Shown here in pieces: positions 14,558-58,494 of a DNA stretch of 64,000 bases. The notes beneath the pieces are model-generated. The model was not told where the DNA came from and made no database searches. It saw only the letters and a list, made by a program, of their open reading frames with translations. Within the stretch, counting starts at the first letter, position 1. The number at the start of each line of letters is the position of its first letter. The position numbers and the translations under genes are program-made. Origin of the DNA: Limimaricola soesokkakensis (GTDB lineage Bacteria; Pseudomonadota; Alphaproteobacteria; Rhodobacterales; Rhodobacteraceae); contig NZ_FWFY01000004.1 of assembly GCF_900172345.1 (NCBI RefSeq), forward strand, positions 1-64,000, read 5' to 3'.

Positions 14558-14588
14558 GCCGGCCACAGATCGTGGCCGGCTTTGTCTT
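14558..14588 (+). terminator. Rho-independent terminator after the FAH gene
   Basis: A perfect 9-bp stem GCCGGCCAC / GTGGCCGGC with a five-base loop (AGATC) is followed by TTTGTCTT. It lies 42 bases beyond the FAH stop codon and closes the plus-strand unit just ahead of the integrase remnant. Confidence 0.8.
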
Positions 14589-14617
14589 GCCGTCGCAAGG
14601 CTCTACTATCCGAGGCG

Positions 14618-16165
14618 ATGAGCCGGACGGCTCGTCTCCTCGCAATCGTAGAGCGCGAAGAGACAAGAATAATGCCCGACTCCGCCTACCAAGACATGCC
14701 CGCCGAAAAGATCACGGCGGTTCTTACGGAAGCGTTGCGGCAGGAGCTTGCCCGCATCCTCATCGAGCAAGATCAAGGCCCCCTCCTCGTCGATGAGGAG
14801 ATCGACGCCCGCATCGAGCTTCTCGAGCAGGAAAACCTTACGCTCAAGCGCCGCGCCCGTCACAACGACTTTGCCCAAGTCGCAGAGCCGCTTCGAGCCG
14901 CCGCTCAGGTTCTCGGCATCACGCTGCCTGAGACGATCCCCAGCGACCTTGGCCGCCGCGCCGTCGACCTGTTCCGCGACTTGAAAGATATTGAAGGCAA
15001 GGCGCTTGATGGCGAGGATGCACGTAGGGAGGCTTCCCCTCTCGTGGCCCGCTTCAGTGCGGCCCCGGTCGACACGTTCGTGTCCTCCGGCCCCGTCCGG
15101 CTCTCGGAATGCTGGGAGCGCGCACTGAAGCTTTATCCCACCAAAAGCATGAAGGGGAATATCAACGCGATCGCCAAGGTCGCGATCGAGTTCCTCGGCG
15201 ACGTTCCGGTGGCCATGATCACCAAACAGAAACAGGAAGAGTTCTTTGCCTGGATGGTACGCCTGCCGAAAAGCCAAGGGCGGAGCCACGGCAAGAACCG
15301 GTTCACCGAAAAGGCCCGCAGTGAGGGCCGCCCCGTCAAAGAACGCCGGCAGCTCACGAAGCAGGACGAGATCGACATCGCCGACGCGGCGGACGAGGCC
15401 GCAACCGAAGAGATCCGTGCGCAGACGGACATTTGCGACCTCGAAAAGCGCGCGCTCCTCGTCGAGAAGCTGGTGCCTCGGCTGACCATGACATCGCTGC
15501 GCCGCAACCGCGACGGGCTCAACCGTCTCTTCAAGGCGGCCTCCGACCTCGGATGCAAAGAGGCACCCAGTGCCCTCTCCTACAAGGAAGTCGAGCAGGC
15601 AATCCAGGCAGCAACACCTGACGATCCCCTCTATATTCGCGTCACCAAGCCCAAGTTCCGCATGCCGTGGACCGAGGAGCGGCTTGCACAATTCCTCACC
15701 TGTCCCATCTACACGGGCTGCGCCTCGGAGCACCGCCGCTGGAAGCCCGGGTCAGTCATCGTGCGCGACGCCTTCTATTGGGTGCCGCTCATTCTTCTCA
15801 CCGTGGGCACCCGAATCGAGGAAGTCCTCCTGCTCAAACGCAACAGCCTGCGGCTGCGGAACCAGGTGCACTGTCTTGCCCTTGGGTTCACCAGCGAGGC
15901 CCTCGGCAAGACGGAAGACGCCGAGCGGATCATCCCGATTCCGCAGCTTCTACTCGGCCTTGGCTTCGTGGACTGGATCAAGTCGCTCGATGACGTTCAT
16001 GGCCCCCTACTCCTCCCAGAAATCGCGCGACGTACCGAAACTGGGAAGGTCACCGAGGCCTTTGGCAAAGCACTGACGCGCACCCTTGGCAGCTATTGCA
16101 ACACGAAGACTGGTCCAGAGCCCCGCGACTTAATTGGCATTCGCTTGCCAGATGATCGGATCTGA
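14618..16165 (+). pseudogene. Tyrosine site-specific integrase lacking both ends
   Basis: 515 residues from the ATG at 14618 (an alternative is ATG 14672). The early part is helical and charged. The catalytic domain starts near the middle, and its first active-site Arg is visible in LTVGTRIEEVLLLKRNSL. The frame then ends after KVTEAFGKALTRTLGSYC, before the HxxR and Tyr boxes that such enzymes need. The N-terminal arm-binding domain also seems absent: the frame opens directly on MSRTARLLAIVEREETRIMP, which in relatives follows about 50 more residues. It is therefore probably inactive and marks an old integration site. Confidence 0.7.
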
Positions 16166-16395
16166 ATACTCAGACCACCTTCTCGCGCGATAGGTAAGTG
16201 GGCTCGACCAATAATTAGAGCATGCGCTGTGAAAGCAGGTTCCAGCCTTTCGATGATAGATTGCGATCGGCCCTAAGCCGCCGTTAAAGGGCTTTATCGC
16301 AAATGTCCGGAAACCGGATGTGTGCAAATTGGGAGGATAGAACTTCTTTATTCGCAACGACGAGTGGCGCGGCTGGGCGGTACTTGCATATGAGC

Positions 16396-17748
16396 CTATT
16401 CGGCTGTCCCTGGCGTGAATACGATTTCGCACCGGACACCGTCAGGTCTGTAGTCGAAATGCACCTTGGCAGAGAGTTCAGCCTTGATCACCGAGTTGAT
16501 CATCTTGCTGCCGAACCCCTGACGCGTCGGTGGGGCGACAAGAGGACCATTAAACTCCTGCCAGACAAGCCTAATTTGGCCTACATCATGCCGCTCGCGA
16601 TCATATTCGACCAGCACATGCCCCTCGGGTGCCGATAGCGAGCCGTACTTGATGGCGTTCGTGGCAAGCTCATGCAGCGCCATCGAAAGACTCGTCACTT
16701 GGTGTGGCGGCAACAGAACGCTTGGTCCGGTAATGCGGAAACGCTCGTGGCCACCTGCCTCCTCTGCCGTGAACGCGAGAAGGTCACGCAGGTCCGCCCC
16801 CTCCTGATCTTGTTCCGCCAAGGCATCATGTGCGCGGGACAGCGCATGCAGCCGGGCGACGAAGCCGCTGCGCATATCGGCAGGCAGAGTTTGCCGTGCG
16901 ATTCCCGCGACCACGGCAAGTGTGTTCTTCACACGATGCTTCATCTCATCCAGGGCCAGATGAAGTCGACGTTCAGCCCTCTTTCGTTTCGAGATGTCGC
17001 GCAGCACGACGGAGTAACCCCGCGACGATGGCGTCTGCTCCTGCTCCTGGATGGGCGCCACCGTGACTTCGAAGTGGTATCCCTGCTGACCGACCATTTC
17101 AAAGCTGGCGTCTTCGGCGGTCTCGCAGATGCCAACGGCATGTTCGAACCAGTCCGGTCGACCCTCGAACTCAATAGCTTCTTGGACCGGACGCCCCAGA
17201 ACCGCGTCGAAAGGTCGCCCGAGCAAGTGTTCCGCGCTCGCGTTCCAGCTGCTGATGCAACCGGTGGAATCGACGCTCAGGATGGCATTTGGAGACGTGC
17301 GCACGATCGCCGCCAGTTCCTCCGCCTTGCGCCTCGTTCGGCGCAGTTCGTCCTCGTAAGCACGGCGTTCGCGGGCATCGAAGATCGTGTAGTCGAACCG
17401 GACTGGATCTCCCGCCGCGTCGTAGCGGGCCACCCCGGTGATCAATACCGGCAGCGGCGGGCCACCCTCGACCTTCAGCGAGCAAGCGATTTCGCGCGCG
17501 AACCCCTGAAGGCGCATCATCGGGCCCAGATGGGTCTCGTAGAACAGCTGCCCCGGCAAGGTCATCAGGTCGGGCAGCTGGGCGGGCCTGTCTTGCGCCC
17601 TTGCCGGCAGAGCGAGCCACCGGCTCAGCGTTTCATTGACGTATCGCAGCCGCCCATGCGGGTCGGTGATCACCATTCCGCACGGCGCATCCTCGACCAG
17701 CTCGGCCAAGGTCTCCAGGCGCTCTTCGCTCGCGTCCTTTGCCATCAT
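16396..17748 (-). CDS. PAS-PAS HWE-family sensor histidine kinase, coupled to an RsbQ-like hydrolase
   Basis: 450 residues. PAS 1 spans about 12-125 (DAPCGMVITDPHGRLRYVNE). A short coiled coil (about 126-148) leads to PAS 2 at about 149-255. The HWE dimerization segment has the phospho-acceptor His271 (DEMKHRVKNTLAVV). The ATPase shows HELATNAIKYGSL, the W-x-E motif LVWQEFNGP and GFGSKMI. It is predicted cytosolic, with no membrane segment. The start (ATGATG at 17748) overlaps the hydrolase stop, so the two are translationally coupled, in the same order as rsbQ-rsbP of Bacillus, where RsbP also begins with PAS. Confidence 0.88.
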   Translation of the reverse strand: MMAKDASEERLETLAELVEDAPCGMVITDPHGRLRYVNETLSRWLALPARAQDRPAQLPDLMTLPGQLFYETHLGPMMRLQGFAREIACSLKVEGGPPLPVLITGVARYDAAGDPVRFDYTIFDARERRAYEDELRRTRRKAEELAAIVRTSPNAILSVDSTGCISSWNASAEHLLGRPFDAVLGRPVQEAIEFEGRPDWFEHAVGICETAEDASFEMVGQQGYHFEVTVAPIQEQEQTPSSRGYSVVLRDISKRKRAERRLHLALDEMKHRVKNTLAVVAGIARQTLPADMRSGFVARLHALSRAHDALAEQDQEGADLRDLLAFTAEEAGGHERFRITGPSVLLPPHQVTSLSMALHELATNAIKYGSLSAPEGHVLVEYDRERHDVGQIRLVWQEFNGPLVAPPTRQGFGSKMINSVIKAELSAKVHFDYRPDGVRCEIVFTPGTAE

Positions 17749-18548
17749 GCGCCGGCAAGATAGTCGCGCATCGCACCGACGACGTCCGAAGGCACCGTCA
17801 TGTGCGGTGCATGGCCGGTCGTGTCCAGCACCTTCATGGTCGCACCAGGTACCCGCGCGCCCATCCAGTCGGCGACCTGCATCGGCACCAGCGCATCGTT
17901 TCTGCAATGCAGGATCAGCGCCGGCCGAGCTGCCTGCTCGAAGGCGGATCTTTCATCGGCAAAGAAGGTCACACGACCAAAGTACTGAGCGATGGAAGGG
18001 TCGGTGCGGCAGAAGCTTTGCGTAAGCTCCTCCGCCGAGGGTTCGCCTGCCGGCTGGCCCGCGATGGTCGGTGCCATCCGCGTCGACCAGCCGAGGTGGT
18101 TCACTTCAAGAAAGGTGATCAGCTCAGCCAGATCCGCATTGGAGAATCCGCCCCCGAAGCCGTTCGCGGGATCGTCGAGAAAGGAGGGCGTCGGAGAAAC
18201 GAGCACGAGGCTTGCCACGCGCTCCGGCGCCCGGTTGGCCGCAAGCAGTGCGATGGTGGCCCCAATCGAGTGACCGACGAGCACGACGTTCTCAAGATCG
18301 AGTTCCTGCATGATCGACAGAAGGTCGATGACATGCGCCTCAAGTTCGGCATAGCGCTTCATGTCGTAGGCCGCGAGGTCCGACTTGCCCATACCAGTCA
18401 GGTCGTAAGTGACGACTTGGAACGTATCTTCGAACATCGGCGCAACCTGACGCCACATTGTCTGGTCGCAGCCAAATCCATGAATGAACACGATGGGCTG
18501 GCCCTCTGGAGAGCCTGACACGACGACTTGGTTGCGCTCGACTATCAT
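17745..18548 (-). CDS. RsbQ-like alpha/beta hydrolase
   Basis: 267 residues from the ATG at 18548 (GAGG upstream); RsbQ of Bacillus subtilis has 269. The catalytic triad reads Ser94 (GHSIG), Asp218 (CRNDALVP) and His246 (TGHAPHMT), close to the RsbQ numbering from memory (96, 219, 247). The oxyanion loop is FIHGFGCDQTMW. RsbQ-type hydrolases, relatives of plant KAI2/D14, bind or process a small hydrophobic molecule and signal to a PAS-containing partner. Here the partner is probably the PAS-HWE kinase whose start overlaps this stop. The ligand is unknown. Confidence 0.88.
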   Translation of the reverse strand: MIVERNQVVVSGSPEGQPIVFIHGFGCDQTMWRQVAPMFEDTFQVVTYDLTGMGKSDLAAYDMKRYAELEAHVIDLLSIMQELDLENVVLVGHSIGATIALLAANRAPERVASLVLVSPTPSFLDDPANGFGGGFSNADLAELITFLEVNHLGWSTRMAPTIAGQPAGEPSAEELTQSFCRTDPSIAQYFGRVTFFADERSAFEQAARPALILHCRNDALVPMQVADWMGARVPGATMKVLDTTGHAPHMTVPSDVVGAMRDYLAGA

Positions 18549-18751
18549 GCCAGTCCTCAATAGCAGTACCAGACTCCGCAGCTGCCTCACTCGTGCTATC
18601 GCATGCGGTTCGGCAACGCCATCGGTAACATCTCGGGGGCTCGCCAGGCCTTTCCTCCCAGCTCGCGCAGGCGCGGCACCTGTACTCTCCCAAATCCGAG
18701 TGCCTGGCGTTTCAATCCTCTGTCTCGCGTTTGCCCAAGGCGTCCGGGAGA

Positions 18752-19120
18752 TCACTTGCCCAAATCGCCTTCCGCCTTAGCCAGAACGGCCGCCAGATTT
18801 GTCGGGCTGTATGGCTTCCCCAGCAAGGCAATGGGCGCGATTTCCGCCAAGTCGTCGTCAGTCAGTTCGTGCAGGCTGCCGCTGACCAGAACGATGGGGA
18901 TACCCAACTCCACCCGCATGATCGCGGCAGCTTCGATGCCACTCGACGGCCCCGAAAGACGAAGGTCGACAAGCGCCAGATCCGGCCTGTCGGCCCGGGC
19001 CATCTCGAGCGCCGTGGCCTTCGATACCGCGATGCCAGTGACCTGCTGGCCCATGTCGATGAGTTGGACCTCGAGATCCATGGCGATGAAGACCTCATCT
19101 TCGACGATGAGAACACGCAT
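18752..19120 (-). CDS. Single-domain response regulator (CheY-like)
   Basis: 122 residues from the ATG at 19120, whose ribosome site GAGGGA overlaps the stop of the upstream kinase. Receiver features: acidic pair in VEDEVFIA, phospho-acceptor Asp52 (LALVDLRLSG), Ser in LVSGSLHE, and Lys102 (LGKPYSPTNL). There is no output domain, as usual for partners of HWE/HisKA_2 kinases in alphaproteobacterial general-stress or phosphorelay circuits. It is probably phosphorylated by the kinase at 19128. Confidence 0.88.
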   Translation of the reverse strand: MRVLIVEDEVFIAMDLEVQLIDMGQQVTGIAVSKATALEMARADRPDLALVDLRLSGPSSGIEAAAIMRVELGIPIVLVSGSLHELTDDDLAEIAPIALLGKPYSPTNLAAVLAKAEGDLGK

Positions 19121-19127
19121 CTGTCCC

Positions 19128-20549
19128 TCAGCTTTCGGCTGCCGGAAGCAGAACGGTCGTTTCCCATCCCCCTTGGTCATGCGAATGCTCGACTCGGCCC
19201 CCAAGCTTGCGGGCAGACATCTGAACCAAGCGCTCGCCAAGGCCGGAGCTGCGCCGTACCTCACGGTCGAGCCCGTCCCGCGCCCCATGCCCATCATCGC
19301 GGACCGTGAGAAGCAAAGACCCCCCGCCGTCCCGTTTCAGCTGGACCTCGATCATGCCCTGCTCGCGGTCGTGGAACGCGTGTTTCAACGAATTGGTGAC
19401 CAGCTCGTTGACGATGATCGAGATACTGATCGCCTTGTCCGGGCAAAGCCGCAGGGGTGCCACGTCGAGCTCGACGCGGATGCCCCTGATATCGCATCCG
19501 GTCGAGGAGATCAGATGCTCGCACAGCTCTTGCAACTGGCTGTCGACCGCGACGCTCGCCACGTCTCCGTCTTGGTAGAGGCTCGCATGAATGGTTGCGA
19601 TCGCGTTCACCCGGGCGCTGGCGGAAAGCAGCTTCCCTCGCGTCTCGGCGGAGGCGCGCGCGCATTCCAGGTTCAGCAGACTTGCCACCATTTGGAGGGA
19701 ATTCTTGACGCGGTGGTTCATCTCGTCGAGCAGAAGCTTCTGGCTCGCGAGGGCGTTGCGCAACTCGGCCTCCTGTTCGCGGAACTCCGTCACATCGACG
19801 ACCATGCCGACGAGATGCGGCTCGTCGTTGACCGGCCCGATCACTATCTCTCCGCGGGCCGAGATCCAGCGGACCCGACCGTCGGGCAAGAGCAAACGAT
19901 GTTCGAGGATCGTGGGGCCCGGCCCCCGCTCCGCCGCGGAAAAGGCGTTCGCGCGCGCCTGCTCGCGGTCGTCGGGATGTACCCGATCGAGAAAGGCCTC
20001 GATGTTGCCTCCGGCCTCCCCCGGCTCGAAGCCATGCAACCGATCGACTGCGGGTGACCTGATGAGATCACCGGTGACGAGGTTGAGATCCCAAAACGAC
20101 AGCGCGGCCCCCTCCGCCGCCGTCCGTTCCCGCGCCTCTCGCAACTTTTCGCTCGTAACCTCGGCAGTGACGTCTTCGACGAGCTGAAGGATATCGCCCG
20201 ATCGTTCGCCCTCGAGGATCGGTGAATGCGACAGTCGCCAGTAGCGTGTCTCGTAGCCGATGTCCGGGAGCACGATGTCATGTCGGCCGGGCGGAAGCGC
20301 ATCGGTCCTGCCCGAGGCCAGGGCCCGCTGGACGGAAGCTCGGATGGCGGCCTCCAAGTTGGGACTGTCCGGCCGTGAGGGGAACTCGTCGAAGAGTTGC
20401 TTGCCCAATAGCGTCACTCGTTCACGGGCGACGACAGAGGCAAAGGCGGCATTGACATCAACGATTTGCAAATCGCTTGTCATGATGATCGCCGGCAATG
20501 GAATCGCGTGAAGGATCGCCTTGCCGGGCTGCGCCGCTGTGTCGAACAT
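19128..20549 (-). CDS. PAS sensor histidine kinase, HisKA_2 type
   Basis: 473 residues. A first PAS-like domain (about 10-130) is followed by a PAS_3 domain (about 148-257: LSFWDLNLVTGDLIRSP, HPDDREQARANAFSA, PDGRVRWISARGE). The HisKA_2 segment has phospho-acceptor His279 (LLDEMNHRVKNSLQMVASLL). The HATPase shows SISIIVNELVTNSLKHAF, VRDDGHG and SSGLGERLV. It is predicted soluble. The gene is 7 bases upstream of its likely response regulator, forming a compact two-component pair. Confidence 0.9.
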   Translation of the reverse strand: MFDTAAQPGKAILHAIPLPAIIMTSDLQIVDVNAAFASVVARERVTLLGKQLFDEFPSRPDSPNLEAAIRASVQRALASGRTDALPPGRHDIVLPDIGYETRYWRLSHSPILEGERSGDILQLVEDVTAEVTSEKLREARERTAAEGAALSFWDLNLVTGDLIRSPAVDRLHGFEPGEAGGNIEAFLDRVHPDDREQARANAFSAAERGPGPTILEHRLLLPDGRVRWISARGEIVIGPVNDEPHLVGMVVDVTEFREQEAELRNALASQKLLLDEMNHRVKNSLQMVASLLNLECARASAETRGKLLSASARVNAIATIHASLYQDGDVASVAVDSQLQELCEHLISSTGCDIRGIRVELDVAPLRLCPDKAISISIIVNELVTNSLKHAFHDREQGMIEVQLKRDGGGSLLLTVRDDGHGARDGLDREVRRSSGLGERLVQMSARKLGGRVEHSHDQGGWETTVLLPAAES

Positions 20550-20713
20550 ACTGCCCTTTCATGAGTCGCAGCAGCACCGAAGCAGCGCTGGTTTCGATAT
20601 GTAGCGTTCGATCCCGGTAAGGAAATACGCTTGGATCGATTGTGGGACAGTGTGACCTGTAGGAACGGCCCTCAGCCGACGTTGGAGAATTATACGGCGG
20701 GGCCGCTCGTTCT

Positions 20714-22060
20714 TCAGAACATCGAGCCGATGTCGGATGCCCCGGTCGGGTAGGCTGCCGGCATGGCCTTCACTTGCGCCGCCGTCAGCCCCAGCTTGAT
20801 TGCCAGGGAGAAGACGTTAATCAGCTCGGCGTAGTCGGGCCCGAACATGTGCGCGCCGAGGATCTTGCCGTCCTTGTCCGTGATGACCTTCGCGCCCGCA
20901 TGGCTCTCACCCAGGCGCTTCTGCGAGAACCAGCCAGAGGTGTCGGTGAAGCTCACCTCGACATCGCCCCTCGCGCGCGCCTCCTCCTCGAGCAGGCCAA
21001 CCCGAGCCAGTTCGGGAATGGTGAAGACCACGCTCGGCACGCCGGTGTAGTCGGGCTCGGTCCGCTTGTCCTTGAGCATGTTCGAGGCGGCGATCTTGCC
21101 CTCGAACACCGCCACCGGGGTCAGCGGCTTGCCGGGCGAGGCGGCGGTGTCGCCAGCCGCAAAGATGCGCGGGTTCGACGGAGATTGCAGCCAGGGCGTG
21201 ACCTTCACGCCGCCATTCTCGGTTTCGATCCCGGCAGCGGCGAGGTCGAGATGGTCGATGGCGGGCAACCGACCCGCGCCGTGCACGACGAGGTTGGCGT
21301 CGATGGCATGGCTCTCGCCCGCTTTCCGGTAGACCACGCGGTGCGCGCCATCTGCCTCCTCGACGCTCTCCAGCACCGCCTCGGCCACGATCTCGATCCC
21401 GGCGGCGCGGCTGCGCTCGAGCAGCATGTCGACGAGGTCGGGGTCGAACATCTTCAGTTGCCGCGCGCCGCGGTCGAGGATCGTCACCTGCGCCCCAGCC
21501 CGCGCCGCGATATGGGCGAACTCGAAGGAGATGTAGCCGCCGCCGACGAAGACGATCCGGCGGGGCAACTCGGCGAGGTTCAGGAAGTCGGTGCTGTCGA
21601 TCAGCCGCTCGGCGCCGGGGAAATCCAGCGGCCGCGGCTTCGCTCCCGTGGCGATCAGCGCGTGGCGGAACGCGATCTCGCCATGACCGTCGATCTCGAT
21701 CCGATCCTCGGCCGTGAAGCGCGCGCGGCCATGAAGCGTCCGCACCCCGGCCTCCTTCAGCCCGCTTTCCATGCTCTCGGGCACCGGGTCGGTGAAGCTC
21801 TCCTTGTGCTTCATCAGCGCCGGCCAGTCGATCCGGGTCTCGCCCGTGACACCCTTGCCTGCGAGCCGTCGCGCGGCCTCCACCGCCTCGGCCCCGGCGC
21901 GCAGCATCTTCTTCGGATCGCAGCCCCTGAGCGCGCAGGTGCCGCCATAGGGCAGCTCGTCTACGATGGCGACGGACCAGCCGGCGCGGGCGCATTTCTT
22001 CGCGGCGCTGATCCCGGCCATGCCGGCGCCGATGACGATCAGGTCGAGCGTGTCGGTCAT
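20714..22060 (-). CDS. MerA-like FAD-dependent disulfide reductase, second copy in the mer locus
   Basis: 448 residues from the ATG at 22060 (AAGGAG upstream). The FAD site is IVIGAGMAGISAAK. The redox-active pair is Cys42/Cys47 (GGTCALRGCDPKK), the NAD(P) site is FVGGGYISFEF, and a second FAD motif is IFAAGDTAASPG. The C-terminal dimer region carries YPTGAS where classical glutathione reductases have HPT. Tyr at that place is also seen in mercuric reductase. There is no terminal CC pair, so it may serve another substrate (a thiol, mercury or organomercurial product). It is the last gene of the merTPFA strand. Confidence 0.8.
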   Translation of the reverse strand: MTDTLDLIVIGAGMAGISAAKKCARAGWSVAIVDELPYGGTCALRGCDPKKMLRAGAEAVEAARRLAGKGVTGETRIDWPALMKHKESFTDPVPESMESGLKEAGVRTLHGRARFTAEDRIEIDGHGEIAFRHALIATGAKPRPLDFPGAERLIDSTDFLNLAELPRRIVFVGGGYISFEFAHIAARAGAQVTILDRGARQLKMFDPDLVDMLLERSRAAGIEIVAEAVLESVEEADGAHRVVYRKAGESHAIDANLVVHGAGRLPAIDHLDLAAAGIETENGGVKVTPWLQSPSNPRIFAAGDTAASPGKPLTPVAVFEGKIAASNMLKDKRTEPDYTGVPSVVFTIPELARVGLLEEEARARGDVEVSFTDTSGWFSQKRLGESHAGAKVITDKDGKILGAHMFGPDYAELINVFSLAIKLGLTAAQVKAMPAAYPTGASDIGSMF

Positions 22061-22106
22061 TTCTGCTCCTTGGTCTTCATGGGTCGGGTCAGTGTGGAAC
22101 GCGGTC

Positions 22107-22469
22107 TCAACGATAGCGGCCCAGCAATCGTTCACTCAGCCCCCAGATCGCGGCCATGCCGCCACCAATCGCGAGGCCGAGCCAGAGCCAACCATCCTCG
22201 CCCAGCGGCACCAGCCCGGTGCCGTGAACCAGCACCGGCAACGTCATCGCCAGCAGAAAGGGCCCGGTGTAGCGGCAGTGCACACGGCCGCAGCGCCGGG
22301 CGTTGAGCAGGCAGGCCCCGCCCATCCACGCCAAGGCCAGCACCCAGATCACCGTTTTGGGAGCATCGGGCAGTGGGATTGCCAAGACCATGACGCCGAC
22401 CGGCAGCCACCATGCGAGAACGGCGCTGCGAGCCGAGCTGAGGAGATCGCGTTTCGGTCCTTCGCTCAT
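22107..22469 (-). CDS. Conserved membrane protein of the mer locus, function unknown
   Basis: 120 residues with four likely membrane segments and a distinctive cytosolic or loop motif NARRCGRVHCRYTGP between segments 2 and 3. Two Cys and a His (C-x3-HC) in that loop could bind a soft metal. It lies 4 bases after merA and before the second flavoenzyme, so it belongs to the same operon. It is not MerC, MerE or MerF by layout. A role in mercury or thiol handling is inferred from position only. Confidence 0.65.
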   Translation of the reverse strand: MSEGPKRDLLSSARSAVLAWWLPVGVMVLAIPLPDAPKTVIWVLALAWMGGACLLNARRCGRVHCRYTGPFLLAMTLPVLVHGTGLVPLGEDGWLWLGLAIGGGMAAIWGLSERLLGRYR

Positions 22470-22473
22470 GGTC

Positions 22474-23886
22474 TCACCCCGCGCAGCAGCTGAGCGCAGC
22501 CACGTCCTTCTCGAAGGTCTGGGCCGCGAGCTTCAGCCCCTCCACCGTTGTGAGATAGGGCATGATGGTGTCGCCCAGCTCCTCGTAGGTCATGCCAGCC
22601 TTGAGCGCCATCGCCGCCGTCTGGATGCTGTCTGCGCCCTCGGGGGCGAGGATCTGTGCCCCCAACAACCGCTTGCTCCTCGCATCCGCCACCAGTTTGA
22701 TCAGCCCGCGCGTGTCACGAGCGGCGAGCGCGCGCGGCACGGCATCAAGCGGCAGAACCGAGGTCACGACCTCATGTCCGGCAGCCCGCGCTTGTGCTTC
22801 GCTCAGCCCCACGCCCGCCACCTGCGGGTCGGAGAAGACCACCCAGGGCATCGTGCTGTTGTCATAGCTGCGCCCCTCGCCCGACACCGCGTTGCGGGCC
22901 GCGAGCTTGGCGCCGTAGGCCGCCATGTAGACGAATTGGTCCCGCCCGGTGACGTCGCCCGCGGCCCAGACATTCGGGTTGGCAGTGCGCATCTGCGCGT
23001 CGACGGTAATCCCGCCCTGCGCGTCGGTCTCGACCCCGGCGGCGGCGAGGTTCAGCCCGCCGCTGTTCGGTACCCGCCCGGTGGCGAGCAGCAGCCGCTC
23101 GGCTTCGAAGTTCTCACCGCCTGTTCCGGTCAGGCGCATGCTGCCTCCCTCGCGTGCCACGCTCTCGTAGCCAGCGACCCGCGCCAGTCGGATACCCTCC
23201 TCGGCGAGGTAGCCCTCCAGCGCCTCAGAGACTTCCGGCTCGGCCTCTGGCAGCACGCCGCGGCGGCTGACCAGCGTCACCGCGACGCCGGCGCGGGCGA
23301 AGAGTTGCGCCAGCTCCACCCCGATATAGCCCGCGCCGAGGACCAGCAGCGAGGCCGGCAGTTCGGTCAGCTCCAGCGCCGAGGTGCTGTCGAGGGCGTC
23401 GACCTGCTCGATACCGGGGATCGTGGGCACATGCGGGCGGGAGCCGGTCGCAACGATGATCTTCGTCGCAGGAAAGACGGCACCATTCACTGTTAGCTGG
23501 CCAGCGTCGCCGAACCGGGCGCGGCCCTCGATGTAGTCGATGTTCTCGTGCCGGGGCAGCACGTCGGCGTATTTCGCCGTGCGCAGCTCCTCCACCAGCG
23601 CCTGCTTCTGCACCACCGTCGCGGCCCAGTCGGTGACGCGGGCCCCGGCCTCGATGCCGTCGAACCGGTTCGCGGCGCGGGCGTGGTGCAGGCCCTCGAC
23701 AGCGCGGATCAGCGCCTTGGAGGGAACGCAGCCGAAGTTGACGCATGTGCCGCCGATGGTCCCGTCGCCGATCAGGGCCACTCGCGCACCGGCCTCGGCG
23801 GCGGTGATCGCGGCCGAAAACCCGGCCGAGCCGGCGCCGACCACGGCGAGGTCGTAGGCGCCTTTGGGTGTGCAGCAATCTGTCAT
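22474..23886 (-). CDS. merA: Mercuric reductase
   Basis: 470 residues from the ATG at 23886. FAD site AVVGAGSAGFSAA, redox pair Cys48/Cys53 (GGTCVNFGCVPSKALI, the MerA signature) and NADPH site LVLGAGYIGVELA. MerA-specific Tyr lies in MPYLTTVEGLKLAA. The C-terminal Cys467-Cys468 pair (LSCCAG) receives Hg(II) before reduction to Hg(0). The heavy-metal-binding NmerA domain is absent; instead there is an early CC at residues 4-5. Co-transcribed with merT-P-F. Confidence 0.95.
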   Translation of the reverse strand: MTDCCTPKGAYDLAVVGAGSAGFSAAITAAEAGARVALIGDGTIGGTCVNFGCVPSKALIRAVEGLHHARAANRFDGIEAGARVTDWAATVVQKQALVEELRTAKYADVLPRHENIDYIEGRARFGDAGQLTVNGAVFPATKIIVATGSRPHVPTIPGIEQVDALDSTSALELTELPASLLVLGAGYIGVELAQLFARAGVAVTLVSRRGVLPEAEPEVSEALEGYLAEEGIRLARVAGYESVAREGGSMRLTGTGGENFEAERLLLATGRVPNSGGLNLAAAGVETDAQGGITVDAQMRTANPNVWAAGDVTGRDQFVYMAAYGAKLAARNAVSGEGRSYDNSTMPWVVFSDPQVAGVGLSEAQARAAGHEVVTSVLPLDAVPRALAARDTRGLIKLVADARSKRLLGAQILAPEGADSIQTAAMALKAGMTYEELGDTIMPYLTTVEGLKLAAQTFEKDVAALSCCAG

Positions 23887-23897
23887 GTCTTCTCTCT

Positions 23898-24128
23898 TCA
23901 GCTGGTGCGTTGGCGCCGCCAGAGCGCGTAAAGGGTGATGCCGATGAACACCGCGAGCGCTGGCAGAAGCACGATGTCGAGCCAGCCCAGCAGGGCGGAG
24001 AGTCCGACCGCGCCCAGCAGGATCACCAAGATCGGGGTGAAGCAGCACAGCGCCGCGACGACGGTGCCGATCAGTCCGTATTTCAGGAGGCGATCGTTCT
24101 TGGTGGAGGGCGTCTCGGGCTGGTTCAT
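23898..24128 (-). CDS. merF: Mercury transport protein MerF
   Basis: 76 residues with two membrane helices and the vicinal Cys28-Cys29 (VAALCCFTPILV) in the first, the hallmark of MerF. The C-terminus is basic. It moves Hg(II) across the inner membrane toward MerA. Its ATG overlaps the merP stop (ATGA) and merA follows 11 bases later. Confidence 0.88.
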   Translation of the reverse strand: MNQPETPSTKNDRLLKYGLIGTVVAALCCFTPILVILLGAVGLSALLGWLDIVLLPALAVFIGITLYALWRRQRTS

Positions 24129-24421
24129 GACCCACTCCCGGAGACAAGCGAGGCCCCGTAACCGACGCCGGTGACAGCGGCGATCAGCGCCTCGGGATCC
24201 GTGATGAGGTCGTCGTAGCGCAATACATAGAGGCCATCCTCGGCCTCGCCCTCGGCGAATTCCGCGATCTCCACCGTCTCGATGCGCTTGAGCGCAGTGG
24301 CGACGATGTAACTGCACGAGGGACAGGTCAGGCCCGTGACGTGGAGACGGGTCTCGGCTTCTTCGGCTTGGATCGCAACCGGTGCGAGGCTGAGCGATGC
24401 GGCGAGCAGGAGGTGTTTCAT
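24125..24421 (-). CDS. merP: Periplasmic mercury-binding protein MerP
   Basis: 98 residues. Signal peptide 1-19 (ending AIQA), then a ferredoxin-like HMA domain with the metal site GLTCPSCSY (Cys33, Cys36) in place of the commoner GMTCAAC. It scavenges Hg(II) in the periplasm for the MerT/MerF transporters. It is followed immediately by merF with a 4-base overlap. Confidence 0.9.
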   Translation of the reverse strand: MKHLLLAASLSLAPVAIQAEEAETRLHVTGLTCPSCSYIVATALKRIETVEIAEFAEGEAEDGLYVLRYDDLITDPEALIAAVTGVGYGASLVSGSGS

Positions 24422-24438
24422 CGGCTGGGGACTCCGGT

Positions 24439-24837
24439 TCAGAAGGTCAGGATGCGGGGCGCGGCATAGGGGAAGATCAGGGCCAGCAGCGCCACGGCGA
24501 GGGCGCCCCAGAGAAGCGCGCGCATTAGACCGCGATCCACGGGACGAGCGCTGGTCCCGGTGCCGCAGTCTTTGGCGGGCACCGGTCGGTAGGCCTTCCA
24601 GAAGCCATAGCCGAGCGCCGCTGCCGCGAAGGAAAAGGTCACCCACTTGTAGGCGTAGAGCGCGGTGAGCTGGCCGATGAAGACGCCGGTGACACCGAGG
24701 CTGACCAGAACCAGCGGCAGGATGCAGCAGGAGGTCATCGCCAGCGCGCCAAGCACCCCGGCGCCGGTCGCGGCCCACCCGGTCCGGTCGAGGCTTTTAC
24801 CCATCCGTCGTTCCGTGTTGATTGTCTCCGCCGTCAT
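24439..24837 (-). CDS. merT: Mercury transport protein MerT
   Basis: 132 residues from the ATG at 24837 with three membrane helices. The first carries the Cys37-Cys38 pair (AMTSCCILPLVL) typical of MerT. Only one further Cys is present in the loop (AKDCGTG), whereas well-known MerT proteins have two there. It is the first gene of the structural operon, directly behind the MerR-type promoter at 24869-24899. Confidence 0.9.
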   Translation of the reverse strand: MTAETINTERRMGKSLDRTGWAATGAGVLGALAMTSCCILPLVLVSLGVTGVFIGQLTALYAYKWVTFSFAAAALGYGFWKAYRPVPAKDCGTGTSARPVDRGLMRALLWGALAVALLALIFPYAAPRILTF

Positions 24838-24868
24838 CGCGTCGCCCCGTTGTCGCTTGATGACAGGC

Positions 24869-24899
24869 AAGATAGGGTCTGTAGTAGCTACAGGATCAA
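24869..24899 (-). promoter_or_regulatory. MerR-controlled mer promoter/operator
   Basis: On the minus strand, -35 TTGATC is separated from -10 TATCTT by exactly 19 bases. That overlong spacer, holding the dyad CTGTAGCTACTACAG, is characteristic of MerR-family promoters, where the activator untwists the DNA to align the two boxes. It lies between divergent merR and merT, 32 bases from the merT start. Confidence 0.9.
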
Positions 24900-24910
24900 G
24901 GAGAAATCCA

Positions 24911-25366
24911 ATGCCGGTCGATCACGCCGCCGCGAGCGACCTGAAGCGCTCCGATCTGGCCCGCCTGACCGGCTGCAATCTCGAGACGATCCGCTATTAC
25001 GAGAGCGTCGGCCTGATGCCCGATCCGCCGCGCACCTCTTCTGGCCATCGCCGCTACGGCTCCGCGCATGTCGAGCGGCTGAACTTCGTGAAGCGGGCAC
25101 GGGATCTCGGCTTCACCATGGAAGAGATCCGCGGCCTGCTGTCCCTCGTTGATCGCGGCAGCCACACCTGCGCCGAGGTCGAACGGATGGGGTGCCACCA
25201 TCTCGGCGTGGTCCGCGCCAAGATCCGCGACCTTCAGGCGATCGAGTCCGTTCTCGCCCGGACCATCGCCCGCTGCACCGGGTCTGATACTCCCGACTGC
25301 CCGTTGCTCGATGTTCTCAATGAAGGGCAGGCCAAGTCGGAAGAGGTGGTGAGCGCATCCGATTAG
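24911..25366 (+). CDS. merR: Mercury-responsive regulator MerR
   Basis: 151 residues, start ATG 24911 with AAGGAG upstream. The MerR winged HTH is at about 12-60 (LARLTGCNLETIRYYESVGLM, GHRRYG). A dimerization helix follows, and the three Hg-binding cysteines are Cys87, Cys122 and Cys130. Their 35 and 8 spacing is close to Tn501 MerR (82, 117, 126). It is divergent from merT across the 19-bp-spacer promoter, so it represses and activates that promoter and probably its own. Confidence 0.95.
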   Translation: MPVDHAAASDLKRSDLARLTGCNLETIRYYESVGLMPDPPRTSSGHRRYGSAHVERLNFVKRARDLGFTMEEIRGLLSLVDRGSHTCAEVERMGCHHLGVVRAKIRDLQAIESVLARTIARCTGSDTPDCPLLDVLNEGQAKSEEVVSASD

Positions 25367-25534
25367 CTGCCATCCACGTGCGGTGCAGCGAAAGTCCGGT
25401 ATCCGCCCCTCCCCGCATAGGCGGTCTTGGCCCAAACCGGCCGTTCGTGGAAGTATTCGACGGAGGGCGGCTTTGGTCAAAAAGACCGAGCACGTCGCCT
25501 GCCGATGCCGAAGAGCAAGTAGCCGTGCGAGTGC

Positions 25535-26770
25535 CTATCGCGCAAAAAGAGGCAGCTTGAATGCGAAGGTCGTGGTCCCGTCCTTGCAGGTTACCTCAAT
25601 CCGACCATTGTGTGCGGTTGCGATGGAGGAGGCGATATGGAGCCCAAGTCCCAGACCTTCGCTCGTCGCATTCGCGCCTCTCTGGAAAGGTTGGAACAGG
25701 GTCTGCTGGACATCCTCCGGGATGGCCAGCCCGCGGTTCGCGACGCTAATCTCGACTTCGTTCTCCCGCACCACGCCCCGCACCGATATCGGTGAACCAT
25801 GCGCTGCGTGTCGCGTGGCATTGGACAACAGGTTCGAAACCGCCTGTGCCACGCGCGGCGCATCGCAGTTGATCGGCCTGTCGAAGTGCAGGTCGAGCAA
25901 AACCTCCTGCTTGGGCCAGGCCGCACGGACCTCGTCGACGACCTGTCGGATGGCGTCCGCCAAGGGGGCGTCCGGGATCGCGGAAATCCGGATGCCGCCG
26001 CCCAGACGGGCCTTGGCATGCAGCATGATGTTGTCGATCAGGTCGCTCATGCGATGGAGCGATGCACGCATCATTGGCAGGATCTGCTGCGCCCTTTCCG
26101 GTAGGGGCTCCTTGTCAAGTTGCCTGAGCCCGGCGACGAGAGCGGCGACGGGATTGCGCAGGTCATGCCCCAGAACTGCAACGAACTCTTCCTGGGCCCG
26201 CGCCATCTCGCGCTCGTATTCGACAAGCCGCTCCTGCGCTTCCAGTCGCTCTTCGGTCTCCAGCCCCCGGCCGATGGTCTCCGCGAACATCTCCAGCATG
26301 GCGACCACGCGCGGTTGCTTCACATCGCGCGGGACGGTGTCGATCGCGCAGAGCGTGCCGAAGATGGTGCCGTCGCTGCGATGTATTGGAATGGAAGCGT
26401 AGCTGACGATGCCGAACTTGGCCGCGATGGGGTGATCCCTGTAGGTCTCGTCGGTGGCGACATCGCTGAACAAGACTTTCTGGGCCGTCTGCCGCACTGA
26501 CTGGCAGAAAGTCGACTGGATTTCGATCTCGTCGCCCTCGGCCAGCCCGAAGTTGACTTCGTCCACGGTGCGACAGGCGACCCAGCGGTCGGCCGTCACC
26601 CGAGCGACGGCGGCGAACCGCATGTCGGTGGCCAGCATGACGGTTTCGAGGATGGTGCCCACGAGCTCGCTGGCTGCCAGCATTTCGATGTCGGCCTGAA
26701 AATCATGCGTCCCGGTCAGGAAGGCCGCATGATTCTGGATGGCGGCGCGCCGCTGTATGTCTCCGTCCAC
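25535..26770 (-). CDS. GAF-domain sensor histidine kinase
   Basis: 411 residues from a GTG at 26770 preceded by GGAGACAG. The GAF domain spans about 30-165 (FCQSVRQTAQKVLFSD, SYASIPIHRSDGTIFGTLCAID). A coiled linker follows, then the HisKA phospho-acceptor His202 (VAVLGHDLRNPVAAL). The HATPase_c shows QAVSNLLSNATRHA and GLGLGLHIASSI. It is soluble, with no receiver domain. No response-regulator gene is adjacent, so its partner is unclear. The 290 bases upstream (26771-27061) show no gene. Confidence 0.88.
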   Translation of the reverse strand: MDGDIQRRAAIQNHAAFLTGTHDFQADIEMLAASELVGTILETVMLATDMRFAAVARVTADRWVACRTVDEVNFGLAEGDEIEIQSTFCQSVRQTAQKVLFSDVATDETYRDHPIAAKFGIVSYASIPIHRSDGTIFGTLCAIDTVPRDVKQPRVVAMLEMFAETIGRGLETEERLEAQERLVEYEREMARAQEEFVAVLGHDLRNPVAALVAGLRQLDKEPLPERAQQILPMMRASLHRMSDLIDNIMLHAKARLGGGIRISAIPDAPLADAIRQVVDEVRAAWPKQEVLLDLHFDRPINCDAPRVAQAVSNLLSNATRHAAHGSPISVRGVVRENEVEISVANRGLAIPEDVQQTLFQPFQRGANATSEGLGLGLHIASSIATAHNGRIEVTCKDGTTTFAFKLPLFAR

Positions 26771-27061
26771 TCGCTGTCTCCATTACCTTCACCCCCAGTA
26801 ACACGGGGCTGCCAAACGGCAATGCAGGATCTGGTTTCGAGGCTGTGACTGGAAGCGAGGCCGCCATTATCTTGGGGAGGCAGGTGCAAGTCGGCGGTCG
26901 CGGGCTCAGAAAGGAGGGAGCGGTGGTCATTCTGCCGTCCATACGGGCGTCGCAAGAAGCTCATACTTGCCTTTAGTATGTCGCCCGAATGCTTCGCCGG
27001 AGCGTTTCCGAACCGCCCCCTTACGCTGGGCGTAATGACTTCTGCCGTGAACCGGTCTCCA

Positions 27062-27433
27062 TCATTCCGAGTCCAAGCACTGCTCCTTCATCACTAATCG
27101 AAATGCCGCAGCAATCATGTTCTCGTCGTAGGGCTTCGACACGACAATGAGGTCTCGATCTGAAGCGATAGGACCATAGCCCGACGCCAAGATCACGGCT
27201 ACGCCGCGACGCTTCAACTCTTGCGCGAGTTCATCCGAGAATTCCCCATTCAGGTTCCGGTCGAGCATGGCGCAGTCGAAGGTCTCGTTCTCGACGAACG
27301 ACCAAGCCTCTTGCAGCGAGCTTGCGGGGCCGACGATTTCCGCCCCGAGATCCCGAAGGATCTCCTCGGCATGCATGGCGATGAACAGCTCGTCCTCAAC
27401 GAGCAGTACGCGCTTGCCCTGAAGCTCCCCCAT
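27062..27433 (-). CDS. Single-domain response regulator
   Basis: 123 residues from the ATG at 27433, which overlaps the stop of the upstream kinase (TGATG). Receiver motifs: VLLVEDELFIAMHAEEIL, phospho-acceptor Asp in CAMLDRNLNGE (about residue 58), ILASGY and VSKPYDENMI. No output domain. Cognate to the HWE kinase at 27433-29250 by coupling. Confidence 0.88.
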   Translation of the reverse strand: MGELQGKRVLLVEDELFIAMHAEEILRDLGAEIVGPASSLQEAWSFVENETFDCAMLDRNLNGEFSDELAQELKRRGVAVILASGYGPIASDRDLIVVSKPYDENMIAAAFRLVMKEQCLDSE

Positions 27434-29250
27434 CACGCTTTCCCGCCGAGTTTGGTTCGCGGCAGGTCAAACACGCAGGTGGTGCCAACTGTCCCGAAGT
27501 CGATCCGCAGCTTACCCATCAGTTCTCGCTCCACTGTGCTGCGAAGCAGCCTCATACCGAAACCACTTTTCTGTTCGCTCGGGACTGCCGGCCCATTGGT
27601 TTCGTGCCAATCGATCCGAATGCACTCCGGGCGCTCGCGACTCGTTGCGCACCGCACCCTGAGCTTCCCATCTGGCACGGAAAGCGAGCCATGCTTGATC
27701 GCATTCGTGGCGAGCTCGTGCAGGGCCATGGAGAGAGAGACCGCGGATTTCGGGGTCAGGCGCTCGTCCGTATCGATGAGCAGGTCCGCTTGGCTGCTTT
27801 TACCAGCCGCAATCCCACACGCGTGGAGCGCGGTGGTGAGGACATCGGACAGCATCGCATTCGCCCAGTTCTCCTTTGTAAGCAGGTCATGCGCCCCCGC
27901 AAGCGCGCGCAGACGGGCCTGAAATTTCGACTGGGCCTGCTGGGGGTCGGAAAGGTCACGAAACGACTGCACGGCAATGCTCTGCACGATTGCGAGCGTG
28001 TTCTTCACCCGGTGATTCAACTCGTCGACGAGCAGCTGCCGCGCTTCCTCGGCGCGACGTCGATCCTCGATATCCAGAAAGGACGTGATCGCGGCGACGA
28101 CCTTGCCGGTCTCATCACGCAAGGGCCGACCGTTGACGATCCAGCGCCGCTCGCCAGCGCTGGTGTCGTAGATCACCTCGCGTCCGGTGGTCTCCTCCCC
28201 GTGCTCCAGCGCCCGGATGATCGCGAGTTCGTCCAAGGAATAACGGTGGCCGTCCAGATGGCGCAGTGGCAGATGGCGATAGCGCTCCAGCCCGCCATTA
28301 AGGTGGTCCACTCCCATCATGCGCCGTGCTTCTCGGTTTATGATCGGCGGCTTGCCCTGGGGATCACGTGCCACGCTGATGCCCACCGGCGTCGTTTCGA
28401 TGACGGCCTCAAGAAACGCGCGTTCCAACGCCAGCTCGCGCCGGCTGTCCTCCAGCGCATCTCCGGCCGCCTTGCGATCGGTGAGGTCCAGGCCAATACC
28501 GATCTGCCGATCGTCGGACAGCCGGACGTTGGCCCAACTTGTCTGCAAGGTTTGCCCATTCCGCGTGACAAGGCGGATGTCCTTCCAGCCTTGGCAGCTC
28601 TCCATAAACCGCGCCACCTCGGCCCGGTAGTCGGGGTCGGGATAGCAGATCTCGAACACGGGCTCGGCGCGAGCTTCCTCGGTCGACCAACCCGCCAGTC
28701 GCTCGAACTCCTTGTTGACCAGAAGCAGGTTCTTGTCCGCGTCATACATGGTGATCATCACGGGAATGATGTCGACGATGCGCTGGAACAGCTCCCGCTC
28801 GCCGGCCAGAAGCTCTTCGGCATCACGTCGTGCCTCGATCTCCGCTTCCAACTTTTGCTGGGCCAATACGGCCTCGGTGACCTCCACCGAGGTCAGGACG
28901 AGCGAAGTGATGCGGCCATCTCGCCGCACGGGGGTCAGGCTCCAGTTCCACCATGTCGGACCGCGCTCGAGACCGTCATAGCGATAGCGTTCGACGACGA
29001 AGGGCTCGCCGGTCTCGGCGACCTGCCGGTATACGGCCAGAACCCGGTCCGGATTGCTCGCGAACTCGGGCAGCGTCAGCCCAGCCACGCCCTTTGTTCG
29101 AAACGGCTCGTCCAGCACCTTCTGGAAGGCCGGGTTGTGAGCGATGACACGAAACGGCTCCTCGGCCTCGAACAGTCCAAGGCAGGCCGGTGAGTGCTCG
29201 AAGAGCTCAGCGAGACCCGGTGCAGACTGGGCCGAAGACAGTTCGATCAT
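27433..29250 (-). CDS. Multi-PAS HWE-family sensor histidine kinase
   Basis: 605 residues. Three PAS/PAC modules can be followed: about 15-130 (EEPFRVIAHNPAFQKVL), 150-265 (ITMYDADKNLLLVNKEFERLAGW) and 280-400 (TTPVGISVARDPQGKP). The HWE phospho-acceptor segment is LLVDELNHRVKNTLAIVQSIA. The kinase core shows HELATNAIKHGSLSV, the W-x-E motif IDWHETNGP and GFGMRLL. It is predicted cytosolic. Its stop overlaps the start of the response regulator, so they are made together. Confidence 0.9.
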   Translation of the reverse strand: MIELSSAQSAPGLAELFEHSPACLGLFEAEEPFRVIAHNPAFQKVLDEPFRTKGVAGLTLPEFASNPDRVLAVYRQVAETGEPFVVERYRYDGLERGPTWWNWSLTPVRRDGRITSLVLTSVEVTEAVLAQQKLEAEIEARRDAEELLAGERELFQRIVDIIPVMITMYDADKNLLLVNKEFERLAGWSTEEARAEPVFEICYPDPDYRAEVARFMESCQGWKDIRLVTRNGQTLQTSWANVRLSDDRQIGIGLDLTDRKAAGDALEDSRRELALERAFLEAVIETTPVGISVARDPQGKPPIINREARRMMGVDHLNGGLERYRHLPLRHLDGHRYSLDELAIIRALEHGEETTGREVIYDTSAGERRWIVNGRPLRDETGKVVAAITSFLDIEDRRRAEEARQLLVDELNHRVKNTLAIVQSIAVQSFRDLSDPQQAQSKFQARLRALAGAHDLLTKENWANAMLSDVLTTALHACGIAAGKSSQADLLIDTDERLTPKSAVSLSMALHELATNAIKHGSLSVPDGKLRVRCATSRERPECIRIDWHETNGPAVPSEQKSGFGMRLLRSTVERELMGKLRIDFGTVGTTCVFDLPRTKLGGKA

Positions 29251-29395
29251 GCAGCCTCCTCGGCAATCATATCGGTGCGGCTGGTTTCGCCACGGAAGCT
29301 AACGCCACAGTGCCTCTCATCAACCAGATGGCCACTACGTCGCGGCCTCCGGTATAGGGCGGTCAAAATAGTCCGTGTGGTTAAGAGTCTGGGGA

Positions 29396-30598
29396 TCAGT
29401 GCGATCGCTCGGACCTGCTCTCGGTTCGTGCCGCATCGATGTTGAGGGGCAGCTTCACAGTAAATCGCGCACCACCGCGTTGCCCCCGTCCCCAGGTCAC
29501 TTTTGCATCAAGCTTATGCGCCATCGCCTGTAGAATAGCCATGCCGAGCCCCTTGCTCTTGCTCGGATCGAAGCCCTCCTGAAGGCCGGGGCCGTCATCA
29601 TCAACCTCGAGCCGGAAATACCCATCAGCCAGTTCGCCCTGAAGTCCGATGCAACCGGCGCCGCTCTTGACCGAGTTCAATACGAGTTCCGTGACCAGGT
29701 GGCCGATTGGAACCAACTGGTCACGAGCCAGATGAAGCGCGGGACAGTCCACCTCGATCAGGCCACCTTGCGGACACAGTGGAAAAAGCTCCCGGCTCAG
29801 CACCTGGAGAAACAGAGCCAAGTCTCCGTGCTGGGCAAGACCGGGCAGACTTTGCTGAATGTGCCGATTGGCCTGAGCGATGGCTCCGATCCGGGCAGCA
29901 ATGTCATTGAGCTCGGAGGCTGTCTGTCCTGCATGTTGCGCCGCCTTGCGCCGCGCGACCGAGGAGATGAGCTGCAAGCTGTTCATGACCCGGTGCTCGA
30001 CTTCCCCGGCCAAGAGCTCCTTTTCCCGCATCTCGCGCCGAAGCGCCTCATGTGTGGCGATGGCCTCGCGCCTCAGCTCGAGCTCGTCCATGACCACCGC
30101 CGCCAAATCCTGAAGGATTGCGGTCTGCTCCGGCGTGAACTCGCGTGGCGCCTTGTCGATGACGCAGAGCGTGCCGAGGCCATGTCCATCATGGGTTCTG
30201 AGCGGGATGCCCGCGTAGAAGCGGAGTCCGAACTCCCCGGCAACGAGTGGGTTGGAAAGCGCCACTGGCTCGACCAGCGCATCGTTAAGAATCCATGGCC
30301 CGTCTTGCAGGATCGCCGAGGCGCAAAGACCTGGTTCGCGAGGAATTTCCTGCACGCCTTCGAGCCCTTCATGGCTCTTGAACCAAATGCGGTCCTCGTC
30401 GACGATCGAGATGATGGCGATTGGTGCATTCAAAAGCCCCGACGCCAGTCTGGCAATACGGTCGAAGGCACCATCCGGTGGCGTATCGAGTACCGCATAC
30501 CGGCGCACCGCCGACAAACGCGCAGATTCAGCATCGTATGACAGGTTGACGTGTTCCAAGTTGATGCTTTCCACCCCTTGAGCCGCTTCACGCAGCAT
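29396..30598 (-). CDS. GAF-HisKA_2 sensor histidine kinase
   Basis: About 400 residues from the ATG at 30598; a GTG at 30736 would add 46 residues of poorly conserved text. The GAF domain occupies about 20-165 (RRYAVLDTPPDGAFDRIARLA, CASAILQDGPWILNDAL, YAGIPLRTHDGHGLGTLCVID). The HisKA_2 motif is LLAGEVEHRVMNSLQLISSVARRKA. The ATPase ends with VDDDGPGLQEGFD and GLGMAILQAMAHKL. Soluble. No linked receiver gene. Confidence 0.85.
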   Translation of the reverse strand: MLREAAQGVESINLEHVNLSYDAESARLSAVRRYAVLDTPPDGAFDRIARLASGLLNAPIAIISIVDEDRIWFKSHEGLEGVQEIPREPGLCASAILQDGPWILNDALVEPVALSNPLVAGEFGLRFYAGIPLRTHDGHGLGTLCVIDKAPREFTPEQTAILQDLAAVVMDELELRREAIATHEALRREMREKELLAGEVEHRVMNSLQLISSVARRKAAQHAGQTASELNDIAARIGAIAQANRHIQQSLPGLAQHGDLALFLQVLSRELFPLCPQGGLIEVDCPALHLARDQLVPIGHLVTELVLNSVKSGAGCIGLQGELADGYFRLEVDDDGPGLQEGFDPSKSKGLGMAILQAMAHKLDAKVTWGRGQRGGARFTVKLPLNIDAARTESRSERSH

Positions 30599-30788
30599 GA
30601 CGGGACAATTGGTCCCTGACAAACCCAGTTTCCGTTGCGCCCCGGGCGCCCCGTCGACCTTGGAAACCGGCGTGCCGCAGCGCCTGACATGAGGGCCCGG
30701 GCCTTCATTGAATCTAGCACAAGGTATGCCGCTCACAGAGGTTGGAACCAGATGCTGCCCGACGCCTGAACTGATCGAGGTGTCCGCG

Positions 30789-58478: not shown

Positions 58479-58494
58479 GCACCCCTGTAAAGCA

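Follow-up and report, generated by a model that had tools for sequence, protein, structure and literature searches.

The window analysed here, 64,000 nucleotides of Limimaricola soesokkakensis (positions 1 to 64,000 of contig NZ_FWFY01000004.1), carries on its minus strand a gene for an RsbQ-type alpha/beta hydrolase and, directly behind it, a gene for an HWE histidine kinase that begins with a PAS domain. We consider it probable that the locus encodes an RsbQ-PAS bipartite sensing module with HWE histidine kinase output, of which the parts, the diagnostic residues and the pairing are observed directly. The start of the hydrolase was set from homologues (its frame stays open upstream to 18755), and its best match in a phmmer search of the Protein Data Bank (PDB) is RsbQ (1wom, E 1.8e-68, 234.5 bits), with lower scores for Olei00960 (206.5 bits) and for the KAI2, D14 and HTL chains (about 117-158 bits; E 4.7e-45 to 1.2e-32 for KAI2/D14). 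The catalytic triad that an earlier note on this DNA had assigned to an RsbQ-like protein is in place, with S94 in GHSIG, D218 in CRNDALV and H246 in TTGHAPH, and all three residues are invariant across 11 aligned family members. The overlap with the start of a PAS-first HWE kinase, claimed in the same note, is found as well, the TGA of the hydrolase (17747-17745) overlapping the ATG of the kinase (17748-17746). A receiver and a second PAS kinase lie upstream as it had said, the kinase 7 bp from the receiver and the receiver 203 bp from the hydrolase (Table 1); with these gaps, a single transcript for all four genes is no more than possible.

The HWE kinase has an intact core. Such kinases are marked by a histidine in the N box and a WxE in the G1 box, and the window protein has HELATNAIKYG and WQE, together with a phospho-acceptor histidine in HRVKN (residues 271-275) within an HWE_HK profile match at residues 268-342 that scores 67.5 bits against a cut-off of 22.8. 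The RsbP-type PAS, here called PAS 1, is the most N-terminal domain (residues 17-125 of 450). It can be aligned with the PAS domains that accompany RsbQ at other loci, and in the AlphaFold model residues 24-124 show the PAS order of strands and helices, with a predicted local distance difference test score (pLDDT) of 75-91 by block; with PAS 1 alone as the query, no PDB entry matched below E 0.09. Nine residues are named in PMC3183031 as typical of RsbQ-partner PAS domains (C10, L13, L48, Q53, F55, C56, Y59, E72 and P86), and at RsbP-type positions PAS 1 has C23, Q67, F69, H73, P76, E86 and P100, in a register that consists of the published residue numbers plus a one-residue loop difference and not of a direct RsbP alignment. 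F69 and H73 correspond to F55 and Y59, the latter a position at which H or Y is the consensus; the L13 position is hydrophobic (V26 counting from C23, I27 counting from Q67), and Y70 and M62 stand at the positions of C56 and L48. As reported in PMC3183031, the RsbP changes F55A and Y59A are both null for signalling, and RsbQ contact is disturbed in both. Judged by these positions, PAS 1 belongs to the RsbP type and keeps the residues needed for RsbQ contact in B. subtilis; the loss of that contact surface, which the earlier note had named as one of two outcomes that would speak against it, is not what is seen. PAS 1 ends without a DIT motif, having TIFDARERR there instead, and a predicted helix (residues 125-150 of the AlphaFold model) runs from it into PAS 2 and not into the output domain; extra-PAS proteins are named in PMC3183031 among the exceptions to a coiled coil between PAS and output.

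The pairing was followed through the best 80 of at least 587 matches from a collection of 84,980 species, named loci that, as the best-scoring part of a longer list, lean towards the window's kin. In 79 of these 80, RsbQ is directly followed by a PAS partner in the same orientation, whose match starts no more than 201 bp from where the RsbQ frame ends, and the sole exception (L071) ends with its contig; the adjacency is more than chance. In a Pfam scan of 79 proteins, i.e., the window protein and 78 partners with the partial L123 excluded, the outputs recognised were SpoIIE (44), HisKA (24), HWE (4) and GGDEF (3), so that outputs are exchanged around a constant module. Within a sample of 295 genomes of the family, ten have the hydrolase at E 1e-60 or better, in 11 copies, each followed by a PAS-1 protein that is an HWE kinase, a HisKA kinase or a GGDEF protein. 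A PAS-1 profile gave 13 matches in 12 of the 295 genomes, and all 13 adjoin RsbQ, nine of them having been rows of the profile alignment itself; the RsbQ of the two additional genomes is 35-37% identical. Across the class, 11 PAS-1 matches were found in 10 of 385 genomes, seven of them beside RsbQ, while within the genus RsbQ is present in all eight genomes. The conservation across Rhodobacterales that the earlier note had looked for thus stands as regards the pair, which holds wherever the family PAS-1 matches occur and throughout the genus, but its distribution across the order is patchy (10 of 295 family genomes by RsbQ at E 1e-60, 12 by PAS 1). In an RsbQ tree of 101 rows, which left out L044 and L045 as apparent duplicates of L137 and L135 and on which outputs were labelled by BLAST and motif assignment, 15 rows form a set with support 99; 14 of them are linked to HWE kinases, and in one the contig stops within the kinase. 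The only other HWE row, L038, attaches to this set by a long branch (support 82). From the pairing counts, the output tally and this tree, the RsbQ-PAS module is, at the level of sequence, a general one, of which the members with HWE output form a small branch in the alphaproteobacteria. The viral contigs searched gave no match. As a separate observation, the RsbQ-linked HWE-type protein of L036 (6119-7471, genome G170) reads NSRVST where its kin read NHRVKN or KHRVKN; by this motif its phospho-acceptor histidine is lost, and the module there may perhaps have a kinase-dead output.

For the working of the module we use the RsbQ-RsbP mechanism, as set out in PMC3183031, as the analogy, and infer from it the contact, the ligand and the direction of effect. 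A small cytoplasmic ligand would enter the pocket of the hydrolase, which would touch PAS 1 at its F-alpha and probably also the helix behind; a complex predicted for RsbP and RsbQ in PMC12143880 has RsbQ between the PAS domains and linkers. The ligand-bound hydrolase would alter its contact with PAS 1 or deliver a product, and the change would travel through the helix to PAS 2 and the HWE dimer, altering autophosphorylation. The suggestion of the earlier note that an RsbQ-like hydrolase serves as kinase input through PAS 1 is supported by the conserved pairing and the retained contact residues. Less firmly, the phosphate would then pass to a response regulator. Transcriptional output would most likely run through a NarL/LuxR-type regulator, because a sister copy conserved in the genus sits behind one, and the adjacent single-domain receiver would be the second candidate.

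This sister copy, at C20:126618 of the same genome, has a hydrolase 67% and a kinase 57% identical to those of the window and occupies a locus common to genus loci L134-L138. A 201-amino-acid (aa) NarL/LuxR-type regulator (Response_reg plus GerE) lies just upstream of RsbQ in all six copy-2-type genus loci, the own one included; it occurs in seven of the eight genus genomes (E 1e-30), and in six of these seven the best copy adjoins RsbQ. By domain, the two kinases of the genome are 65% identical in PAS 1, 60% in the dimerisation and phospho-acceptor domain (DHp), 59% in the catalytic domain (CA) and 47% in PAS 2, figures that give no decision on receiver sharing. The window copy itself clusters with those of G300, G107, G149 and G238 (support 89 in the RsbQ tree), and in these relatives the immediate neighbours that were examined include no receiver gene; the contig of G300 ends 150 bp behind the kinase, and a receiver-like open reading frame (ORF) in G149 is about 6.6 kb away. 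Through the sister copy only, the NarL-type regulator appears to be a better-linked output than the general stress relay discussed below.

Several observations weigh against the module as proposed. A Pfam scan of the window kinase recognises PAS 2 and HWE_HK only, leaving PAS 1 without a match, and the AlphaFold model of the kinase, made from 11 input sequences, has a mean pLDDT of 80 and a predicted template modelling score of 0.41. Four of the 11 class-survey matches (L160, L161, L162 and L164) are PAS-1-like domains without RsbQ. As for the regulator, its best copy in G300 has no adjacent RsbQ, G107 has RsbQ and no NarL-type regulator at E 1e-30, five paralogue loci show no RsbQ within 1.5 kb, and no homologue was found beside RsbQ in the window, L032-L036, L046, L047 or L133. 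Moreover, PMC3183031 describes the RsbQ ligand as still unidentified even in B. subtilis, and no experiments on an RsbQ-HWE pair were found in a literature search that covered mainly titles and abstract openings, with most subscription journals outside it.

Among the alternatives, the one that we take most seriously, though we think it less probable than the module described above, is that the hydrolase is an enzyme that makes the ligand of PAS 1 (Model 1 of PMC3183031), so that PAS 1 would be the true sensor. The invariance of S94, D218 and H246 in the 11 aligned family members would fit this, as would the need for the triad in B. subtilis signalling (PMC3183031, section 11), but Model 2, in which the ligand occupies the pocket and is not turned over, fits the same data equally. 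It seems rather unlikely that the copy in the window was gained recently as a spare of little function, with the genus-conserved copy 2 doing the actual work. Copy 2 does occupy the syntenic genus locus, the G+C of the window pair is 0.61-0.62 against 0.68 for copy 2, and a similarity to an intact integrase-like gene of G299 breaks off about 300 bp from the end of the window kinase; against this, the catalytic and contact residues of the window copy are intact, and in G107 and G300 no RsbQ other than the copy-1-type gene reaches E 1e-60. A metabolic hydrolase that merely neighbours a kinase is hardly credible: alpha/beta hydrolases are common, with ten matches to the query in the own genome at E 0.001, but only two of the ten score RsbQ-like, the third being 31% identical, and the pairing of RsbQ with PAS is strict across phyla.

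The earlier note had also proposed an input to the alphaproteobacterial stress phosphorelay. From this perspective the four genes would form one relay, running from the hydrolase and the PAS1-HWE kinase to the receiver, the HisKA_2 kinase and PhyR in the manner of MrrA and PhyK in Caulobacter, which we regard as unlikely. In its favour, the receiver and the HisKA_2 core resemble PhyR and PhyK, the receiver in particular the receiver of the genome's own PhyR by sequence comparison, and PMC5964349 describes several HWE/HisKA_2 kinases of Caulobacter and Sphingomonas as feeding into MrrA or PhyR. Moreover, of the five HisKA_2-receiver units found, three have an HWE kinase behind them on the same strand, namely those of the window (where it stands behind RsbQ), of own contig C18 (L018, by Pfam HWE_HK) and of G300 (L151, by homology); but behind the receivers of the other two (L150 and L139) no HWE homologue was found. 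The NCBIfam models place both proteins below threshold, the PhyR-family model giving the receiver 86.5 bits against a cut-off of 240 and the PhyK model giving the HisKA_2 kinase 110.3 bits against 750. The letters of the FATGUY motif of MrrA-type hubs were sought in the receiver, where VLVSGS stands in their place. At E 1e-90, relatives of the HisKA_2 kinase are present in three of eight genus genomes and two of 295 family genomes (the own and G170), and among the RsbQ loci examined only the window has the HisKA_2-receiver pair beside RsbQ. NepR and PhyR, with a HisKA_2 kinase of their own, are on contig C23, whereas the RsbQ locus is on C20. With the EcfG-type consensus as generally given, a strict promoter match occurs only once in the window, at 59873 (+) and not at the locus, and the region from 15000 to 31500 has no looser match either. 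The 203-bp gap that separates receiver and hydrolase shows neither a sigma-70-like nor an EcfG-like promoter in scans, and promoter and terminator scans gave no signal above shuffle level. Given these points, and a genus-conserved copy that lies behind a NarL/LuxR-type regulator, the stress-relay claim is weak: it is possible but unsupported, action in trans being conceivable as for MrrA in Caulobacter (PMC5964349), and the full chain in this alphaproteobacterial branch, from RsbQ input through a HisKA_2-receiver-HWE relay to PhyR-EcfG, is doubtful. If it were true, RsbQ would be a common entry to two unrelated general stress responses, sigma-B in Bacillus and PhyR-EcfG.

A conserved four-gene arrangement was considered and rejected, since among the 80 best matches the receiver is the best match of no ORF; the HisKA_2 kinase is the best match of an ORF in three, at 25-34% identity and E 6e-25 or weaker. 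Receiver-like ORFs lie about 1.1 kb from RsbQ on the opposite strand in L037 (33%) and beside another kinase about 6.6 kb from RsbQ in L032, and Pfam assigns no family to the 124-aa ORFs that follow the kinases in L032 and L033.

Table 1. Features of the RsbQ-HWE locus and of a second signalling cluster in the window
Feature	Position	Strand	Basis or remark
PAS-PAS-HisKA_2 kinase, 473 aa	19128..20549	-	HisKA_2 E 1.4e-20; C-terminal part PhyK-like
Single-domain receiver, 122 aa	18752..19120	-	Response_reg E 3e-10; PhyR-receiver-like, without FATGUY motif
Gap between receiver and hydrolase, 203 bp	18549..18751	-	
RsbQ-type alpha/beta hydrolase, 267 aa, triad S94-D218-H246	17745..18548	-	phmmer, residue inspection
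ATGA overlap, hydrolase stop and kinase start	17745..17748	-	
PAS1-PAS2-HWE histidine kinase, 450 aa	16396..17748	-	HWE_HK E 1.7e-18; motifs HRVKN, NAIKYG, WQE
PAS 1, residues 17-125, RsbP-PAS type, presumed hydrolase-contact domain	17374..17700	-	alignments, predicted fold, RsbP-position residues
F-alpha motif QLFYETHLGP of PAS 1, residues 67-76	17521..17550	-	register of RsbP Q53-P62 as given in PMC3183031, section 6
PAS 2, residues 143-252	16993..17322	-	Pfam PAS E 2.6e-15
HWE dimerisation and phospho-acceptor domain	16723..16947	-	Pfam HWE_HK
GAF-HisKA kinase	25535-26770		second signalling cluster
Single-domain receiver, SGYG close to FATGUY	27062-27436		second signalling cluster
PAS-HWE kinase, three PAS_4 stretches	27433-29250		second signalling cluster
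GAF-HisKA_2 kinase	29396-30736		second signalling cluster

Elsewhere in the window, 25535-30736 holds another signalling cluster (Table 1), on the same strand and with no RsbQ. Directly upstream of the four genes are probable mercury-resistance genes (20714-24870), including MerT at 24439-24870 and two pyridine nucleotide-disulphide oxidoreductases; similar DNA in G297, G299, G300 and G107 is on contigs other than those of their RsbQ. On the other side, an ORF at 14582-16165 shares 95% identity across 1510 bp with a portion of an 818-aa ORF of G299 that matches DUF6538, with Phage_integrase below the cut-off, and, as this similarity stops so near the end of the HWE kinase, the window copy may lie on an inserted segment. 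The stretch 57599-59982 is 79% identical to DNA by the HisKA_2-receiver-HWE unit of G300 (L151 2792-5176), and the strict EcfG-type promoter match at 59873 lies in it. A BCCT betaine-type transporter stands beside a copy-1-type pair in L034 (9976-11670, G238) and L133 (3536-5206, G300), in differing arrangements, which is perhaps chance and perhaps an osmotic link. No tRNA was found in the window.

The locus mirrors rsbQ-rsbP with a histidine kinase in place of the PP2C phosphatase, and in this the earlier note was right about the arrangement; the pair, which the note did not know to be described, has in fact been published. Nadezhdin, Brody and Price reported 45 adjacent RsbQ-PAS pairs in 2011, with phosphatase, histidine-kinase or cyclase output and with histidine-kinase output in Gram-negatives (PMC3183031), and a new type of pairing was therefore rejected. 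Like RsbQ-RsbP and the modules described there, the window has the hydrolase gene directly upstream, an N-terminal RsbP-type PAS, the F-alpha residues and no DIT, and its histidine kinase belongs to one of their three Gram-negative outputs. Unlike them, it has a second PAS and then an HWE core as output, in the place that a PPM phosphatase takes in B. subtilis. The main text of PMC3183031 mentions neither HWE nor HisKA, and our literature search, in the scope given above, found no description of an RsbQ-HWE pair. What is added beyond 2011 is thus a rarer kinase type and a hint at a possible partner regulator. The output of one pair in that paper, the RsbQ-PAS of Oceanicola granulosus (Q2CB27), was left open with its gene at a contig end. 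In the RsbQ tree, the locus of strain HTCC2516 (L046) falls, like the window copy, within the HWE-linked branch; a 100-N gap interrupts its PAS gene, and the HWE-kinase homologue behind (47%) points to an HWE output for this module, the L046 gene being presumably that of Q2CB27.

What RsbQ senses is a long-standing question, and the endogenous ligand of KAI2 is likewise described as undiscovered (PMC10504578). The genus would be a convenient test system, with the module in all eight genomes and the sister copy beside a DNA-binding response regulator in six, so that the target genes of that copy would be directly readable. The MrrA-PhyK-PhyR system of Caulobacter (PMC5964349) shares with the window HWE/HisKA_2 kinases and a single-domain receiver. 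Unlike MrrA, however, the window receiver is without FATGUY, and its link to PhyR is putative. The KAI2 and D14 receptors for karrikin and strigolactone belong to the hydrolase family of the window protein but score below RsbQ, and their plant partners are not known to be kinases. The closest counterpart on the kinase side is the Brucella LOV-HK (6ph4, 5epv), which comes first both by structure (Foldseek with the kinase model, 6ph4, E 5.2e-29, TM 0.31 over the multidomain chain) and in a PDB sequence comparison of the kinase core. It has the same order of sensor, PAS and HWE, but a light-sensing LOV domain stands where the window has an RsbP-type PAS and a separate hydrolase.

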